Part shown: positions 10,587 through 21,433 of the stretch, piece after piece
Position numbering within the stretch: the first letter of the stretch is position 1
How the letters are laid out: each line of letters begins with the position of its first letter
Assembly: GCF_945957465.1 (NCBI RefSeq)
Contig: NZ_CAMFLC010000006.1
Span: 62,001 to 126,000 of the forward strand
DNA: 64,000 bases
Direction of reading: 5' to 3'
DNA from: an uncultured Leifsonia sp.
Lineage (GTDB): Bacteria; Actinomycetota; Actinomycetes; Actinomycetales; Microbacteriaceae
Made by a program: the position numbers and the translations under genes
Notes under the pieces: model-generated
Database searches by the model: none
Seen by the model: the letters and a program-made list of their open reading frames with translations, nothing else
What the model was told of the DNA's origin: nothing

Positions 10587-10663
10587 GGGGAGGAAATCTG
10601 TCGCGGGCGCCTGCGGCAACCGGTGTCGAGTGATTGACTCGGTTCGGAAAGGTGGTCGCGCGG

Positions 10664-12565
10664 ATGGCGCTCTCGGCGAAGCAGACGAGGATGCTCGACA
10701 TCCTGTCGCGTCGGGCTGCCTGGGTGACGGCGGCGGAGCTGGCCCACGACCTCGGCGTCACCTCCCGCAGCATCCGCAGCTACGCGGCAGCGCTCGGGGA
10801 GCTCGTCGAGTCGGGCCCGAACGGCTACCGGGTGAAGGGCGACGCCTATGCGGCGTATCTCGCGGACGCGCCGTCGACGCCTCCCTCCGCCGGGTCGCCG
10901 CAGGAACGGCTGGCCTTCCTCGCGCGCCGGCTCCTCGACGAGCCGGACGGAATCGACGTGTACGAGACGGCGGAGAGCCTGTTCGTCAGCGACTCCACGA
11001 TCGAGGCCGACCTGACCCGCGTGCGCAGCCTCCTCGCCGGCACCGAGCTGGAGCTGGAACGGCACGGCGCCGTCGCGCGTCTCACCGGTCCGGAGATCGC
11101 CCGGCGCAAGCTCATCAGCCGGCTGTTCCGCGACGAGGCCCGGCAGGGCGTCGTGGACGTGTCCCGCATCCAGGAGGCGTTCGCATCGGAAGGTCTCGCC
11201 GCGTTCAAGTCCGACCTGGTCGAGATGCTCGATGCCCGCGGCTTCTTCGTCAACGAGTACGGCATCAACGACGTACTGCTGCACATGGCCGTGGCGCTCG
11301 ACCGGGTGGCCAAGGACCGCGTGCTCCCCGCAGCCGGCGTCGCCGACGCGGGGGAGGCGCTGCGCGGCCTCGCCGACGACCTGGGGCGCTTGGTGCGCAC
11401 ACACTTCGACGTCGAGCTCGACGCGACCGAACTGCGCTACCTCGCGATCCTGCTGCGCACGCGCGTCATCGCACCCGGGGCTCGCGCGGACAGCGTCGCG
11501 GAGTTCGTCAGCGAGGAAGACCTGGCGAGCGTGCGGGGGATCGTCGCCCGTGCCTCCACCGAGTACCTGGTCGACCTCCGCGACGAGGATTTCATCGTGC
11601 GTCTCACCCTGCACGTGCAGAACCTGGTGGCCCGTGCGCACGAGAACACCTACTCGCGCAACCCGCTCACCCGCTCCATCAAGAGCTCGTACCCGATGAC
11701 GTACGAGCTCGCCGTGTACATCGCGAGCCGGCTTCAGGCCGCCGAGGGCATCGCGGTGAACGACGACGAGATCGCCTACATCGCCATGCACGTCGGCGCG
11801 TATCTGGAGCAGCAGTCGCGGCGGCGGGACGCGGTGCGCACCGCAGTGGTGTGCCCCAACTACTACGACATGCACATCCTCCTGCGTGAGAAGCTCGAGA
11901 GCACCCTCGGCGACGAGCTCGACATCGTGAGCATCATCACCTCCACCGACGCCGACTGGTCGGGGATCGATGCGGACCTGGTGCTGACGACCATCGATCC
12001 GCGCGGGCGGCGCGAGAACACCGTGATCGTGCAGCCGTTCCTGACCGAGACCGACGTGGAGCACATCCGGCAGTCGGTTGCGCGCATCCGCAGGCAGCGC
12101 CGTCGCGCCGGGATCAAGAACGAGCTGCTCGAGTACTTCGACGAGAGCCTCTTCCTGCGCAACTTCTACGCGCGCGATGCGATCACCATGATCCGTGCCC
12201 TCGGCGACCGGATGATCGCGGCCGGCGCGATCGGGAGCGACTACGTCGAGCAAGCGGTGGAGCGGGAGCAGATGTCCTCCACGGCGTTCACCGACACCCT
12301 CGCGGTGCCGCACGCGATGACGATGGACGCCAAGCGCACGGCCATCGCGATCGTGGTCAACGACACGGCGATGGACTGGGGCGACGCCCGCGTGAATGTG
12401 ATCGCCTTCATCGCATTCTCTGAGGGCGGTCGCGCGGCCTTCCAGACGGTGTTCGATCAGTTCGTGGAGGTCTTCTCCGATCGGGAGGCCGTGCTCGGCC
12501 TGATCCGCCGCGCCGACACCTTCACTGCGTTCATCGACGAGCTCGTCCGCATCATCGACGCCTGA
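10664..12565 (+). CDS. mtlR: MtlR-type PRD-containing PTS transcriptional activator
   Basis: This 633-residue regulator has the full BglG/MtlR-type architecture. A winged helix-turn-helix comes first ('TAAELAHDLGVTSRSIRSY', about residues 20-45), then two PTS regulation domains (about 185-290 and 300-395). A IIB-like domain follows (from about 390, 'RTAVVCPNYYDMH'), and a C-terminal EIIA-like domain ends it ('LAVPHAMTMD', about 545). Such proteins are phosphorylated by HPr and EII components and switch on mannitol genes when substrate is present. The start at 10664 has AAAGGTGG upstream; a TTG at 10634 is a weaker alternative. It lies 4 kb from the mtl operon, on the opposite strand. Confidence 0.85.
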   Translation: MALSAKQTRMLDILSRRAAWVTAAELAHDLGVTSRSIRSYAAALGELVESGPNGYRVKGDAYAAYLADAPSTPPSAGSPQERLAFLARRLLDEPDGIDVYETAESLFVSDSTIEADLTRVRSLLAGTELELERHGAVARLTGPEIARRKLISRLFRDEARQGVVDVSRIQEAFASEGLAAFKSDLVEMLDARGFFVNEYGINDVLLHMAVALDRVAKDRVLPAAGVADAGEALRGLADDLGRLVRTHFDVELDATELRYLAILLRTRVIAPGARADSVAEFVSEEDLASVRGIVARASTEYLVDLRDEDFIVRLTLHVQNLVARAHENTYSRNPLTRSIKSSYPMTYELAVYIASRLQAAEGIAVNDDEIAYIAMHVGAYLEQQSRRRDAVRTAVVCPNYYDMHILLREKLESTLGDELDIVSIITSTDADWSGIDADLVLTTIDPRGRRENTVIVQPFLTETDVEHIRQSVARIRRQRRRAGIKNELLEYFDESLFLRNFYARDAITMIRALGDRMIAAGAIGSDYVEQAVEREQMSSTAFTDTLAVPHAMTMDAKRTAIAIVVNDTAMDWGDARVNVIAFIAFSEGGRAAFQTVFDQFVEVFSDREAVLGLIRRADTFTAFIDELVRIIDA

Positions 12566-12584: not shown

Positions 12585-12637
12585 ATTCGTCACGAATGTC
12601 GCGATTCGTGGCACGAAACGCGCGATTCGTCACGAAT
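12585..12637. repeat. three-palindrome intergenic element, copy 1
   Basis: Three perfect 13-base palindromes lie in a row with their centres exactly 20 bases apart (12591, 12611, 12631). They read ATTCGT-C-ACGAAT, TTCGTG-G-CACGAA and ATTCGT-C-ACGAAT. The same arrangement recurs at 20002-20054. The element lies between two genes whose ends face each other (mtlR and the 12706 lipoprotein). Confidence 0.85.
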
Positions 12638-12705: not shown

Positions 12706-13116
12706 TCAGTTGGCGGTGACGATGTACGTCACGGCCACGCCGGGAGTGCCCACGGCGACGGTGTACTTCGCGTTCGCGTACACGGCCTTGCTGTCGGTCG
12801 CGCCGGGCTGGACGGTGTAGCCGGCCTTCTCGAGAGCGGCCTTCGCGTCGGCGAAGCCGCTCTTGTCCTTCGGCTGCACGGTGACGGACCAGCCGTCGTT
12901 GTGGTCGCCGTTGGCGACGATGATCGTGCCGTCGACGAGCGGGACGTCCGACTTCGGGAAGTCGGACGGAAGCGACTTGGAGGCCGCCTCCGGCGAGGCC
13001 GTCGCCGTCGGCGACGAACTCGAACCGCTCCCGTCACCGGAGCAACCGGTCAGCGAGGCGATGGCGAGAGCCGCGACGATGGCGGCGGGGACGAGCAATT
13101 TACTGTTGGTGCGCAT
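12706..13116 (-). CDS. small secreted lipoprotein of unknown function
   Basis: The 136-residue product has a lipoprotein signal peptide with lipobox 'LTGC' (Cys at about residue 25), then a Ser/Thr/Pro-rich linker to about residue 50. A compact domain of about 85 residues follows, containing 'GWSVTVQPKDKSGFADAKAALEKAGYTVQPG'-like sequence. It should be anchored on the outer face of the membrane. The domain has a PASTA-like 'A...L..AGY.V' pattern, but I do not recognise a named family. TAGGCT at 13160-13165 could be its -10 box, giving a leader of about 38 bases with AGGA before the ATG. Confidence 0.75.
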   Translation of the reverse strand: MRTNSKLLVPAAIVAALAIASLTGCSGDGSGSSSSPTATASPEAASKSLPSDFPKSDVPLVDGTIIVANGDHNDGWSVTVQPKDKSGFADAKAALEKAGYTVQPGATDSKAVYANAKYTVAVGTPGVAVTYIVTAN

Positions 13117-18786: not shown

Positions 18787-19995
18787 ATGGATCTCGAAGC
18801 CCTGTACCGCGACCTGCACGCCCACCCCGAGCTCTCGTTCGAGGAGCACCGCACCGCCGGCATCGTCGCGGAGCAGCTGGCCGCGCTCGGCCTCGAGGTG
18901 CACACGGGGATCGCCCGGACCGGTGTCGCGGGTGTGCTCCGCAACGGCGATGGACCGACGGTGCTGCTGCGCGCCGACATGGACGGTCTGCCCGTGCTCG
19001 AGCAGACCGGACTGCCCTGGGCGTCCACCGCGACGGCACCGGGCGACGACGGGCATCCCGTGCCGGTCATGCATGCGTGCGGCCACGACATCCACATCAC
19101 CTGCCTGCTCGGCGCCGTCGAGCAGCTCGTCGCGACCTCCGACGACTGGTCGGGCACCGTCGTCGCGGTGTTCCAGCCTGCCGAGGAGCACGGCGGCGGC
19201 GCCGAGGTCATGGTGCAGGACGGTCTCTACACCACCGTGCCGCTGCCCGACGTCGTGCTCGGCCAGCATGTGACGCCGTTCCCCGCCGGCATGGTCGGCG
19301 CGCACCCCGGAGCGGCGATGGCGGCGGTCGACGCCTTCGAGGTGACGCTGCACGGCCGCGGCGGCCACGGATCGCGCCCGGAGACGACCATCGACCCGGT
19401 CGTGATGGCCGCTGCGGCGGTCATGCGGCTGCAGGGCGTCGTGTCACGCGAGATCGCGCCTCAGGACACCGCGGTCGTGACGGTCGGGACGCTCCACGCC
19501 GGGACGAAGAACAACATCATCGCACCGTCCGCGACGCTGGGGATCAGCGTGCGCAGCTTCGACGAGACGGTCCGCAGCCGGGTGCTGGAGGGAGTGGATC
19601 GCATCCTCCGCGCCGAGATGCAGGCGAGCGGATCGCCGCACGAGCCGACGGTCGAGTGGGGCGAGCGCTACCCCGTCACCGTCAATGACGTGGAGGCCAC
19701 CGCGCGGGTCAACGCGGCTTTCGCCGCGGAGTTCGGCGCGGAGGCCGTGCTCGAGCCCGGTGCGCTCTCCGGTAGCGAGGATGTCGGCAACCTGGCCACG
19801 GCCGCGGGCGTCCCCCTGGTGTACTGGCTTCTCGGGGGCGGTGACCCCGAGGTCGTGCGCGCAGCGATGGCGGCGGGCACGGTCGACACGGACATCCCGT
19901 CGAATCACTCGCCGTTCTTCGCGCCGCTGGCCCAGCCGACCATCGACACCGGTGTCCGCGCGCTCGTGGTGGCGGCCCGCGAGTGGCTGGCCTGA
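18787..19995 (+). CDS. M20-family amidohydrolase (hippurate hydrolase / N-acyl-amino-acid amidohydrolase-like)
   Basis: This 402-residue cytosolic metallohydrolase has the M20D pattern: 'HPELSFEEHRTA' at about residue 14, metal ligands in 'MHACGHDIHITC' (about 94-105), 'FQPAEEHGGGAEVMV' (about 134-148) with the catalytic and ligand glutamates, and the dimerisation insert with 'GRGGHGSRPETTIDP'. These enzymes cut N-acyl amino acids or conjugates such as hippurate. Length is normal. It follows the LacI gene on the same strand with a 150-base gap and its own -10 box, so it is probably a separate unit. Confidence 0.88.
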   Translation: MDLEALYRDLHAHPELSFEEHRTAGIVAEQLAALGLEVHTGIARTGVAGVLRNGDGPTVLLRADMDGLPVLEQTGLPWASTATAPGDDGHPVPVMHACGHDIHITCLLGAVEQLVATSDDWSGTVVAVFQPAEEHGGGAEVMVQDGLYTTVPLPDVVLGQHVTPFPAGMVGAHPGAAMAAVDAFEVTLHGRGGHGSRPETTIDPVVMAAAAVMRLQGVVSREIAPQDTAVVTVGTLHAGTKNNIIAPSATLGISVRSFDETVRSRVLEGVDRILRAEMQASGSPHEPTVEWGERYPVTVNDVEATARVNAAFAAEFGAEAVLEPGALSGSEDVGNLATAAGVPLVYWLLGGGDPEVVRAAMAAGTVDTDIPSNHSPFFAPLAQPTIDTGVRALVVAAREWLA

Positions 19996-20001
19996 CGCGA
20001 G

Positions 20002-20054
20002 ATTCGTGACGAATGTCGCGATTCGTGCCACGAAAGTGGCGATTCGTGACGAAT
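20002..20054. repeat. three-palindrome intergenic element, copy 2
   Basis: It has the same design as at 12585-12637: three perfect 13-base palindromes with centres 20 bases apart (20008, 20028, 20048), reading ATTCGT-G-ACGAAT, TTCGTG-C-CACGAA and ATTCGT-G-ACGAAT. All three central bases are the complement of those in copy 1. It again lies between convergent genes (the amidohydrolase and the MATE exporter). Confidence 0.85.
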
Positions 20055-20098: not shown

Positions 20099-21433
20099 CT
20101 AGCGTTCGGCGCCGGGTCGCATCCAGGCCCGGCCGCGGGCGCGGAGGCCGAGCGTGAGCGCCCGCGCACCGAGGTAGCCGAACGCGAAGGCGGCGGTCAG
20201 CGCCGCCAAGCCTCCGGCGTCGTGCGAGCCCCACGCGACGACGGCCAGGGCGAGCGGCGCGAAGACCGCCACGTTGAGCGCGCCGGTCAGCGCCAGGTAG
20301 CGCGCGTCGCCGGCCCCGATGAGCACGCCGTCGAGCACGAAGACGTACCCACCGAGCGGAGCGCTCGCGCCGATGACGGCGAGAGCGGGAGGCAGTAGAG
20401 CCGCGACCGTGGAGTCGCTCGTGAAGAGTCCCGCCGCGATCGGGCTGAGCACGACGGTCACGGCCCCGAGCACCGCTCCGGCCCCGACCCCCCACTGCAC
20501 GCAGCGGCGGAGCACCTCGCGGACGTCCGCCAGCTCGCCCGCGCCGAGCCCCTTGCCCACCAGTGCCTGCGCGGCGATCGCGAGCGCGTCGAGGGCGAAC
20601 GCGAGCGTGGCGAAGACGGTCATCCCCACCTGGAACGCCGCGAGCTCGTCCGGGCCCAGCCGGGTCGCAGCGAAGACCGCCAGCAGCATGGCCGCCCGCA
20701 GGCTCGCGGTGCGCAGGAACAGCCAGCCTCCCGCGCGCGCCGTGCGGCCGATGCCGCCGTTGTGCGGGAGGAGCGGAGCGCCGACACGGCGCGCGTGGCG
20801 CACCACGATCAGCGCGTAGACCGCGACCATCGCCCACTGCGCCGCGACCGTCCCGAGCGCCGATCCGGCGATGCCCAGACCGGCCCCGTAGATGAAGACG
20901 AAGTTCAGGATGATGTTCGCCCCGAACCCGCCGACCGCGACCACGAGCGGCGTCCGGGTGTCCTGCAGGCCGCGCAGGAGTCCGGTCGTGGCGAAGACGA
21001 GCAGCATGGCCGGGAGGCCGAGCATCGACAGCGTGAGATAGGTCGTCGCCTCGGCCGTGACCGCCGGCCCGGCGCCGAACAGCCCGACGAGCAGCGGCGA
21101 GGCGAACCAGCCGGCGGCGGCCAGGACGATCCCCAGGGCCAGTGCGAGCCAGCTGCCGTCAACGCCCGCGGCGACGGCGCCGCGTTCATCCCCGGCGCCG
21201 AGCCGTCGGGCGACCGCGGGCGTGGTCGAGTAGGCGAGGAACACCATCAGTCCGACGATCGTCTGCAGCACGGCGCTCGCGATGCCGAGGCCGGCCAGCG
21301 GCGCGACGCCGAGATGCCCGACCATCGCCGAGTCGGCGAGCAGGAAGAGCGGCTCGGCGACGAGCGCTCCGAGAGCCGGCACGGCGAGGCGCAGGATCTC
21401 GCGGTCGAGCGGGCGGCGGAGGCGGAGGTTCAC
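20099..21433 (-). CDS. MATE-family efflux transporter (DinF-like)
   Basis: The 444-residue protein has twelve predicted membrane segments in two homologous halves, with 'AVPALGALVAEPLFLLADSAMVGHLG' at the N terminus, the signature of DinF-type MATE proteins. MATE pumps export cationic drugs or organic compounds using H+ or Na+ gradients. It starts with GTG. TAGCGT lies nine bases upstream and could be its -10 box. It ends against the amidohydrolase gene, with the palindrome element between. Confidence 0.9.
   Translation of the reverse strand: MNLRLRRPLDREILRLAVPALGALVAEPLFLLADSAMVGHLGVAPLAGLGIASAVLQTIVGLMVFLAYSTTPAVARRLGAGDERGAVAAGVDGSWLALALGIVLAAAGWFASPLLVGLFGAGPAVTAEATTYLTLSMLGLPAMLLVFATTGLLRGLQDTRTPLVVAVGGFGANIILNFVFIYGAGLGIAGSALGTVAAQWAMVAVYALIVVRHARRVGAPLLPHNGGIGRTARAGGWLFLRTASLRAAMLLAVFAATRLGPDELAAFQVGMTVFATLAFALDALAIAAQALVGKGLGAGELADVREVLRRCVQWGVGAGAVLGAVTVVLSPIAAGLFTSDSTVAALLPPALAVIGASAPLGGYVFVLDGVLIGAGDARYLALTGALNVAVFAPLALAVVAWGSHDAGGLAALTAAFAFGYLGARALTLGLRARGRAWMRPGAER

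Follow-up and report, generated by a model that had tools for sequence, protein, structure and literature searches.

A dispersed palindromic repeat family of Leifsonia and its pairing with Vsr/DUF559-like nuclease genes

A triplet of short palindromes between two convergent genes of a Leifsonia genome is one copy of a small repeat family dispersed at gene 3' ends. Elements of this kind flank genes for Vsr/DUF559-like nucleases, and the elements and the nucleases almost certainly belong together. Taken as a whole, the family is probably a REP-like non-autonomous palindromic repeat with a cognate Vsr/DUF559-like nuclease that drives its spread. This combined statement is held less firmly than the pairing because nuclease-driven spread, which we infer from sequence comparisons, is less certain than the pairing itself. 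The results suggest an enzyme-and-repeat partnership of a previously unrecognised kind.

The window, which is the whole stretch of DNA that was analysed, is 64,000 nucleotides long and belongs to the host Leifsonia assembly (G000; 4.06 Mb, 112 contigs). The comparison set was composed of 28 Leifsonia genomes. The triplet consists of box O (ATTCGTSACGAAT), box M (TTCGTGSCACGAA), and a second box O, with centres 20 bp apart. Three palindromes with centres at 12591, 12611, and 12631 and a 20-bp spacing had been described in a sequence-only reading, and direct reading located them exactly there. A second copy, which had been placed at 20002, was confirmed at 20002–20054 and was also between convergent genes. 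The two copies and their neighbours are as follows; gene names are from reading of the translations.

10634..12565, strand +, PTS-regulation-domain transcriptional regulator, left of copy 1
12585..12637, strand., O-M-O repeat element, copy 1, between convergent genes
12585..12597, strand., box O (ATTCGTCACGAAT), first of copy 1, direct sequence reading
12605..12617, strand., box M (TTCGTGGCACGAA), centre of copy 1, direct sequence reading
12625..12637, strand., box O, second of copy 1, direct sequence reading
12706..13116, strand -, small lipoprotein, right of copy 1
18787..19995, strand +, M20-type amidohydrolase, left of copy 2
20002..20054, strand., O-M-O repeat element, copy 2, between convergent genes; box O 20002-20014, box M 20022-20034, box O 20042-20054, with centres 20008, 20028, and 20048
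20099..21433, strand -, MATE-type efflux transporter, right of copy 2

The left gene stops 19 bp short of copy 1, and the right gene ends 68 bp away on its other side. The middle box differed from the outer boxes, as had been noted, but its description as offset by one base can be refined. In the exact elements, box M was usually ATTCGTGSCACGAAT, with a preceding A in 32 of 41 and a following T in 32 of 41; this usual form equals box O enlarged by two central bases.

When the whole host assembly was searched with the full O-N8-M-N8-O pattern at up to three mismatches, 45 triplets were found, 41 of them with no mismatch and four with one. The reversed control pattern had no occurrence in the same 4.06 Mb, and chance is therefore excluded. 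Exact O boxes numbered 80, about two per triplet. The sequence-only reading had listed a short non-autonomous repeat family among its options and had proposed a whole-genome search; 45 host copies rather than just two, and further copies with conserved spacing in relatives, bear that option out.

Triplets with up to three mismatches occurred in six of the 28 Leifsonia genomes: 45 in G000, 80 in G008, 126 in G017, 22 in G011, and a single triplet, with three mismatches, in each of G021 and G023. A sample of the family gave triplet matches in 5 of 398 genomes, all from Leifsonia and thus from one of 85 genera. Box O alone was found in 21 of the 28 Leifsonia genomes, with a maximum of 456 exact copies (G023), and was absent from the other seven. 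Where box M was not conserved, the spacing still was: L. virtsii and C5G2 contained stretches with box O every 20 bp, and CL147 contained tandem 40-bp units.

Other arrangements of these boxes were also observed. Leifsonia sp. CL147 (L028, L021, L106) contained tandem 40-bp units in which box O was fixed and the remaining 27 bp were array-specific, the longest array (L028) having up to 12 units. The linkers of clustered O-M-O elements in L068 (L. shinshuensis) and L090 (TF02-11) held another palindrome, ATTTG..CAAAT, which resembles the flanks of nuclease genes from another clade. A further type of palindrome, GAGTACGCAGARA..TCTGCGTACTC (L161, L163, L246, L247), had an exact match in 5 of the 28 Leifsonia genomes and one host copy, at C22:560, and resembles the elements that flank the nuclease paralogs L281, L308, and L312.

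The host copies were concentrated at gene 3' ends. Among the 45 copies, 28 had convergent neighbours, 12 had tandem neighbours, and none had divergent neighbours, while three lay at contig edges and two overlapped a predicted gene; these classes were assigned with our own gene finder, by which 40 of the 45 were classifiable. The baseline was given by the window's 28 intergenic regions of at least 60 bp, of which 4 were convergent, 17 tandem, and 7 divergent. Against this baseline, a complete lack of divergent sites had a probability of about 1e-5, and 28 or more convergent sites among 40 had one of 2e-15.

A single host gene was enclosed by two identical inverted O-M-O copies, 878 bp apart. 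These flanking copies had one mismatch from the consensus, and just two of the 45 copies were closer to it; copy 1 of the window matched them at an E value of about 1e-8 in a sequence search. The presumed cognate enzyme is chromosomal and has roughly 280–300 residues, a C-terminal Vsr/DUF559-like (PD-(D/E)XK) domain, and an N-terminal part with weak AbiEi likeness in some paralogs. The host protein scored 34.2–34.5 bits against Pfam PF18741, which has a curated cut-off of 38.2 bits, and three further proteins that were checked also stayed below the cut-off. Among 43 aligned relatives, 39 matched PF18741 at E 0.001 (best 1.7e-8) and nine matched DUF559. Residues D200, D215, H217, and D227 were invariant, and E167 and E211 were present in 42 of the 43 aligned rows; the conserved acidic residues of the nuclease domain may have a catalytic role. 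PF18741 is the Vsr-like REase domain that PMC3710099, a conflict-system survey, names as novel, and this survey also describes the MTES_1575 Vsr-like domain.

AbiEi models of the PADLOC library weakly matched two of three proteins, both of them paralogs (E 4.5e-7 and 2.4e-4), and the host protein had no AbiEi or other PADLOC match. In Pfam, an AbiEi domain was found in one of the 43 aligned proteins. A profile search of the PDB found no solved relative, and structure prediction from three sequences gave a pLDDT of 38 and was unusable.

Orthologs, a term used here for genes of 49–100% identity, were present in 25 of the 28 Leifsonia genomes, where palindromic boxes were found next to them, and absent from G003, G014, and G027. 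Most of them were at one conserved locus, between epimerase-like and AMP-ligase-like genes (names from reading). A second ortholog was located elsewhere in G004, and the ortholog of G018 appeared as two pieces. The two orthologs of G004 (L269, L275) occupied separate loci and had unlike palindromes beside them; the unit of gene and element may therefore have moved or duplicated. At L125:3989-4060 the nuclease reading frame ran on into the repeat, and several orthologs ended similarly; 19 C-terminal residues would therefore be encoded by the element. A nuclease of the record labelled Microbacterium sp. 18062 (L023:5582-6680; 39% identical) was accompanied by inverted repeats; those on one side contained box O, and those on the opposite side a diverged form of it.

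The pairing was tested within Leifsonia by aligning the upstream and downstream flanks of 71 nuclease-family genes, a test that scores sharing and not palindromes; one further gene, L311, was dropped for its short flank. Forty paralogs were fetched, mostly top-ranked, with some near contig starts skipped and some lower-ranked ones added. The flanks shared sequence in 64 of the 71 genes, namely in 21 of the 26 orthologs and in 43 of the 45 paralogs, at a threshold set to the 99% level of the controls. The controls, 300 genes of 600–1100 bp from one genome (G011), exceeded it in two cases. Shared segments of 30 bases or longer were present in 62 genes, of which 51 had at least one segment whose self-complementarity was above that of 99% of gene-body segments, and the median per base was 0.85 for shared segments and 0.26 for gene bodies.

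Five orthologs were missed by the test. In four of these (L254, L255, L261, and L269), visual inspection showed boxes in both flanks, and the fifth, L270 of G018, had boxes clearly only downstream, its tested upstream flank lying inside the gene. The two missed paralogs were L317, in which the E-x-x-G-x-x-H motif was changed, and L274, in which the motif was kept and the Glu at position 167 was absent. Different paralogs have different elements: among 53 pairs of paralogs from one genome, the elements were dissimilar, with a median score of 15 and a maximum of 26.

An unlikely explanation of these flanks is regulatory titration, by which the palindromes would be operators of the nuclease gene, as in AbiEi-like autoregulation, and the dispersed copies would be sinks or secondary sites that the nuclease does not move. 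According to the abstract of PMC7319586, inverted repeats in the promoters of AbiEi antitoxins are bound by the antitoxins themselves; in addition, two paralogs are weakly AbiEi-like (E values as above) and an element lies upstream of the nuclease gene. However, a second element lies just downstream and often overlaps the end of the nuclease reading frame. The dispersed host copies, moreover, are at 3' ends with none between divergent genes, and the host protein is without an AbiEi match.

As single-stranded DNA, the nuclease-flanking copy folded very well, with a z of -10.8, and the window copies moderately, with z of -3.0 and -3.4. Selection for pairing of the arms would predict complementary outer-box centres and complementary spacers. 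In the arm-covariation analysis, which used the exact-match elements (41 from the host and 82 from others), the outer-box centres were complementary in 20 of 41 and 30 of 82, respectively, and spacer complementarity was at or below that of shuffles. The arms are thus without covariation. Conservation falls on the sequence of the boxes, an indication of protein recognition, and an RNA hairpin or terminator was accordingly rejected as the selected feature. A protein-binding array had been among the earlier proposals: its DNA recognition part is plausible on these grounds, and what it misses is the likely nuclease partner.

When the slot of copy 1 was followed through the genomes, both neighbouring genes could be placed in 24 of them. 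An O-M-O element was present there in G000 and G017, and 13 of the 24 genomes had an element of a nuclease-flank type, of several types (E 2.1e-5 or better in the slot search). Ten shuffled sets gave 0 of 24.

Selection of the hairpins as bidirectional terminators between convergent genes, with spread by ordinary duplication and an incidental link to the nuclease, would fit the 28 convergent, 12 tandem, and 0 divergent sites, the nuclease-cognate elements in 13 of 24 copy-1 slots, and the hairpins that folded elements can form. This explanation is nevertheless quite improbable, since the O-M-O arms lack covariation, direct reading found no U-run at either window copy, and terminators need neither the box sequence, nor the 20-bp phase, nor a nuclease gene between two copies. 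We agree with the earlier judgement that the triplet looks like neither a terminator nor a CRISPR array, though the elements occupy terminator-type positions.

In order to follow turnover, host loci were compared with 1.2 Mb of the 4.2-Mb genome of Leaf336 (G011), where the flanks were 82–92% identical. This comparison used 14 loci and left out three others of G000: L132 and L147 were one-sided, and L135, where an element of G011 adjoined the matched flank, was not syntenic. At the 14 host loci, Leaf336 had the element in three, one of which bordered a 1.3-kb gap, had one degenerate box in one, and was without an element in ten. At seven clean single-element loci, the gap in Leaf336 was shorter by 49–87 bp. 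Elements are thus gained or lost at orthologous sites. No target-site duplication was detected (2.27 versus 2.07 expected). At about 908.6 kb of G011 C1, the counterpart of L153, Leaf336 had about 650 bp at the place of the host O-M-O element; from its reading, this DNA resembles a gene for a ribbon-helix-helix antitoxin together with the beginning of one for a toxin.

The element type changed together with the nuclease. On the ortholog tree, labelled from the downstream element (flanks were mixed in G006, G007, G002, G010, and G026), box type required 8 changes, where the minimum possible is 6 and shuffled labels required 14.2; none of 200 shuffles was as low. An O-M-O clade, a 20-bp O clade, and an ATTTG clade were well supported, and the backbone of the tree was unresolved. 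Across 64 genes, element similarity and protein similarity were correlated (Mantel 0.41, with 0 of 500 permutations as high), and the gene with the nearest element was among the three protein-nearest genes in 50 of 64, about 3 being expected. Because shared genomic position contributes to the Mantel correlation, stronger evidence is given by the dispersed copies, which change too.

For the dispersed copies, three types of box were counted: O, B (ATTCGTGCCGAAT), and C (ATTTGYGCCAAAT). All three were at zero copies in G003, G014, and G027, which have no ortholog, and in G004 and G012, whose orthologs have other palindromes. The remaining 23 Leifsonia genomes had 6 to 456 copies; the contrast of 23/23 with 0/5 is post hoc, as the types were defined after the flanks had been seen. 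Flank type and dispersed type did not correspond one to one. G020 and G022 had ATTTG-type flanks yet 57 and 54 ATTCGTGCCGAAT boxes, and G010, G016, and G026 had O flanks plus 19 to 38 ATTCGTGCCGAAT boxes. ATTTG boxes numbered 30 and 32 in G013 and G019, which are without ATTTG flanks, and in G024 and G025 the type seen at their own flanks had just 2 and 3 boxes. Within a 1.2-Mb part of G011, chosen regardless of elements, type O had 7 copies, the element of a second paralog had 6 including its two flanks, that of a third paralog had its two flanks alone, and that of a fourth had none.

Leaf336 provided a natural experiment on the putative active site. Its nuclease has Gln in place of E211, alone among the 43 aligned proteins; L317, outside that alignment, has Asp at position 211. 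Mismatch-free triplets were 12 of 22 in Leaf336 and 41 of 45 in the host, and the ratio of exact O boxes to triplets was 22/22, compared with 80/45, 148/80, and 226/126 in its relatives. The loss of the Glu was thus accompanied by few, worn repeats, a suggestive observation from one case that is not proof. The Leaf336 nuclease gene was still flanked by elements. The link to the active site is drawn from few and mixed cases, because Leaf336 keeps its flanks and L274 keeps the motif without them.

Beyond the genus, a search at E 1e-6 gave PF18741 matches for 83 of the 296 Actinomycetota genomes. Forty homologs were chosen by open-frame length (mostly 290–380 residues, with three longer) and by spread of genomes. 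Flank sharing above the 99% level of mismatched pairs was found for 25 of 38 homologs in other genera; the other 13, and both further members from the host (L386 and L387), had no shared flank. In self-complementarity, 19 of the 25 shared segments exceeded 95% of gene-body segments and six did not. Flank sharing was seen for all eight homologs with the E-x-x-G-x-x-H motif, versus 17 of the 32 others. One query protein matched three plasmid records and one phage record, so few that a chromosomal family is a fitting description. A phage origin was considered and rejected: the exact triplet had no match in viral_contigs, and the phage match of one nuclease query was that single record.

A further reading is genome defence or addiction, in which the palindrome, by being present or absent, would decide whether the nuclease attacks DNA, and chromosomal copies would mark self. 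The MTES_1575 Vsr-like domain was described in the conflict-system survey (PMC3710099), two paralogs have weak AbiEi matches in PADLOC, a library of defence models, and there are several paralogs per genome. Even so, such a role seems very improbable, as the host protein has no PADLOC match, mobile homologs of the query were limited to the three plasmid records and one phage record, and members of the O-M-O clade all keep the gene yet vary widely, from 22 to 226 O boxes. Chromosome-organising or nucleoid-protein sites, an option of the sequence-only reading that could draw on the fixed 20-bp phase and strict box conservation, are scarcely credible, being contradicted by fast gain and loss at orthologous positions, by the absence of box O from 7 of the 28 Leifsonia species, and by a clade-specific sequence that shifts with the nuclease.

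For a repeat that is spread by its cognate nuclease, a mechanism of four steps may be proposed. The N-terminal half of the protein would recognise the palindrome, and the nuclease would nick or cut there, on either the duplex or an extruded hairpin. Repair or replication after the cut would copy the element to new sites, and copies would persist where they are least harmful, at gene 3' ends. More broadly, we lean towards a view of selfish or domesticated replicators throughout the Actinomycetota, in which PD-(D/E)XK (Vsr/DUF559-like) nucleases may each maintain and spread their own palindromic repeat, independently of the HUH/RAYT-REP systems, with several specificities per genome competing for convergent-gene slots.

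The elements were compared with known repeat systems. RAYT is a single, vertically kept enzyme that changes together with its repeat, and the present nuclease and its elements resemble it in this respect. To our knowledge, the HUH RAYTs are the one recognised class of dedicated enzyme for REP repeats. The likeness to REP/REPIN repeats and their RAYT (TnpA-REP, Y1 HUH) lies in short, high-copy palindromes, a location at gene 3' ends, and the placing of the enzyme gene between copies of its own repeat, as set out in the abstract of PMC3733652. In contrast, the probable enzyme of the Leifsonia element is a PD-(D/E)XK (Vsr/DUF559-like) nuclease and not a Y1 transposase. The Y1_Tnp model PF01797 at E 0.001 matched 0 of 28 Leifsonia genomes, with 5 of 14 control genomes positive; a RAYT/Y1 transposase was therefore rejected as the driver, and the Leifsonia system stands outside REP/RAYT because the defining transposase was found in none of the 28. 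The nuclease-paired repeats also differ in being about 50–65 bp long, the family of the window having 13-bp boxes at 20 or 40 bp. In the flank profile of the exact-match elements, the GTAG tag that accompanies an imperfect REP hairpin was not seen.

The terms PDDEXK, DUF, and actinobacteria did not occur in PMC3733652. Its abstract describes CGTC-tagged REPs, mostly in alphaproteobacteria, which resemble the present elements as palindromic repeats apparently without a dedicated transposase. In a search of open-access literature by titles and the starts of abstracts, no link was found between DUF559/MTES_1575 nucleases and dispersed palindromic repeats. The novelty of the partnership is judged from this search and against the REP literature.

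MITEs are alike in being short non-autonomous repeats that appear related to an enzyme-coding unit, whereas the Leifsonia element has no detected target-site duplication, and the gene enclosed by its flanking copies codes for no recognised transposase. Operators of AbiEi antitoxins are likewise inverted repeats beside genes, some of them weakly AbiEi-like here, but the Leifsonia elements are dispersed genome-wide and the nuclease domain is in the same protein. Unlike the unrelated spacers of a CRISPR array, the stretches between O boxes in a CL147 array resemble one another. The proposed partnership would suggest a role for a large, little-studied actinobacterial nuclease family. Each nuclease brings a predicted substrate, so the pairing is directly testable, and the many paralog–element pairs form a natural specificity code. 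If the reading is true, the repeat-plus-enzyme life style known from REP and RAYT arose at least twice, here with an unrelated nuclease fold.
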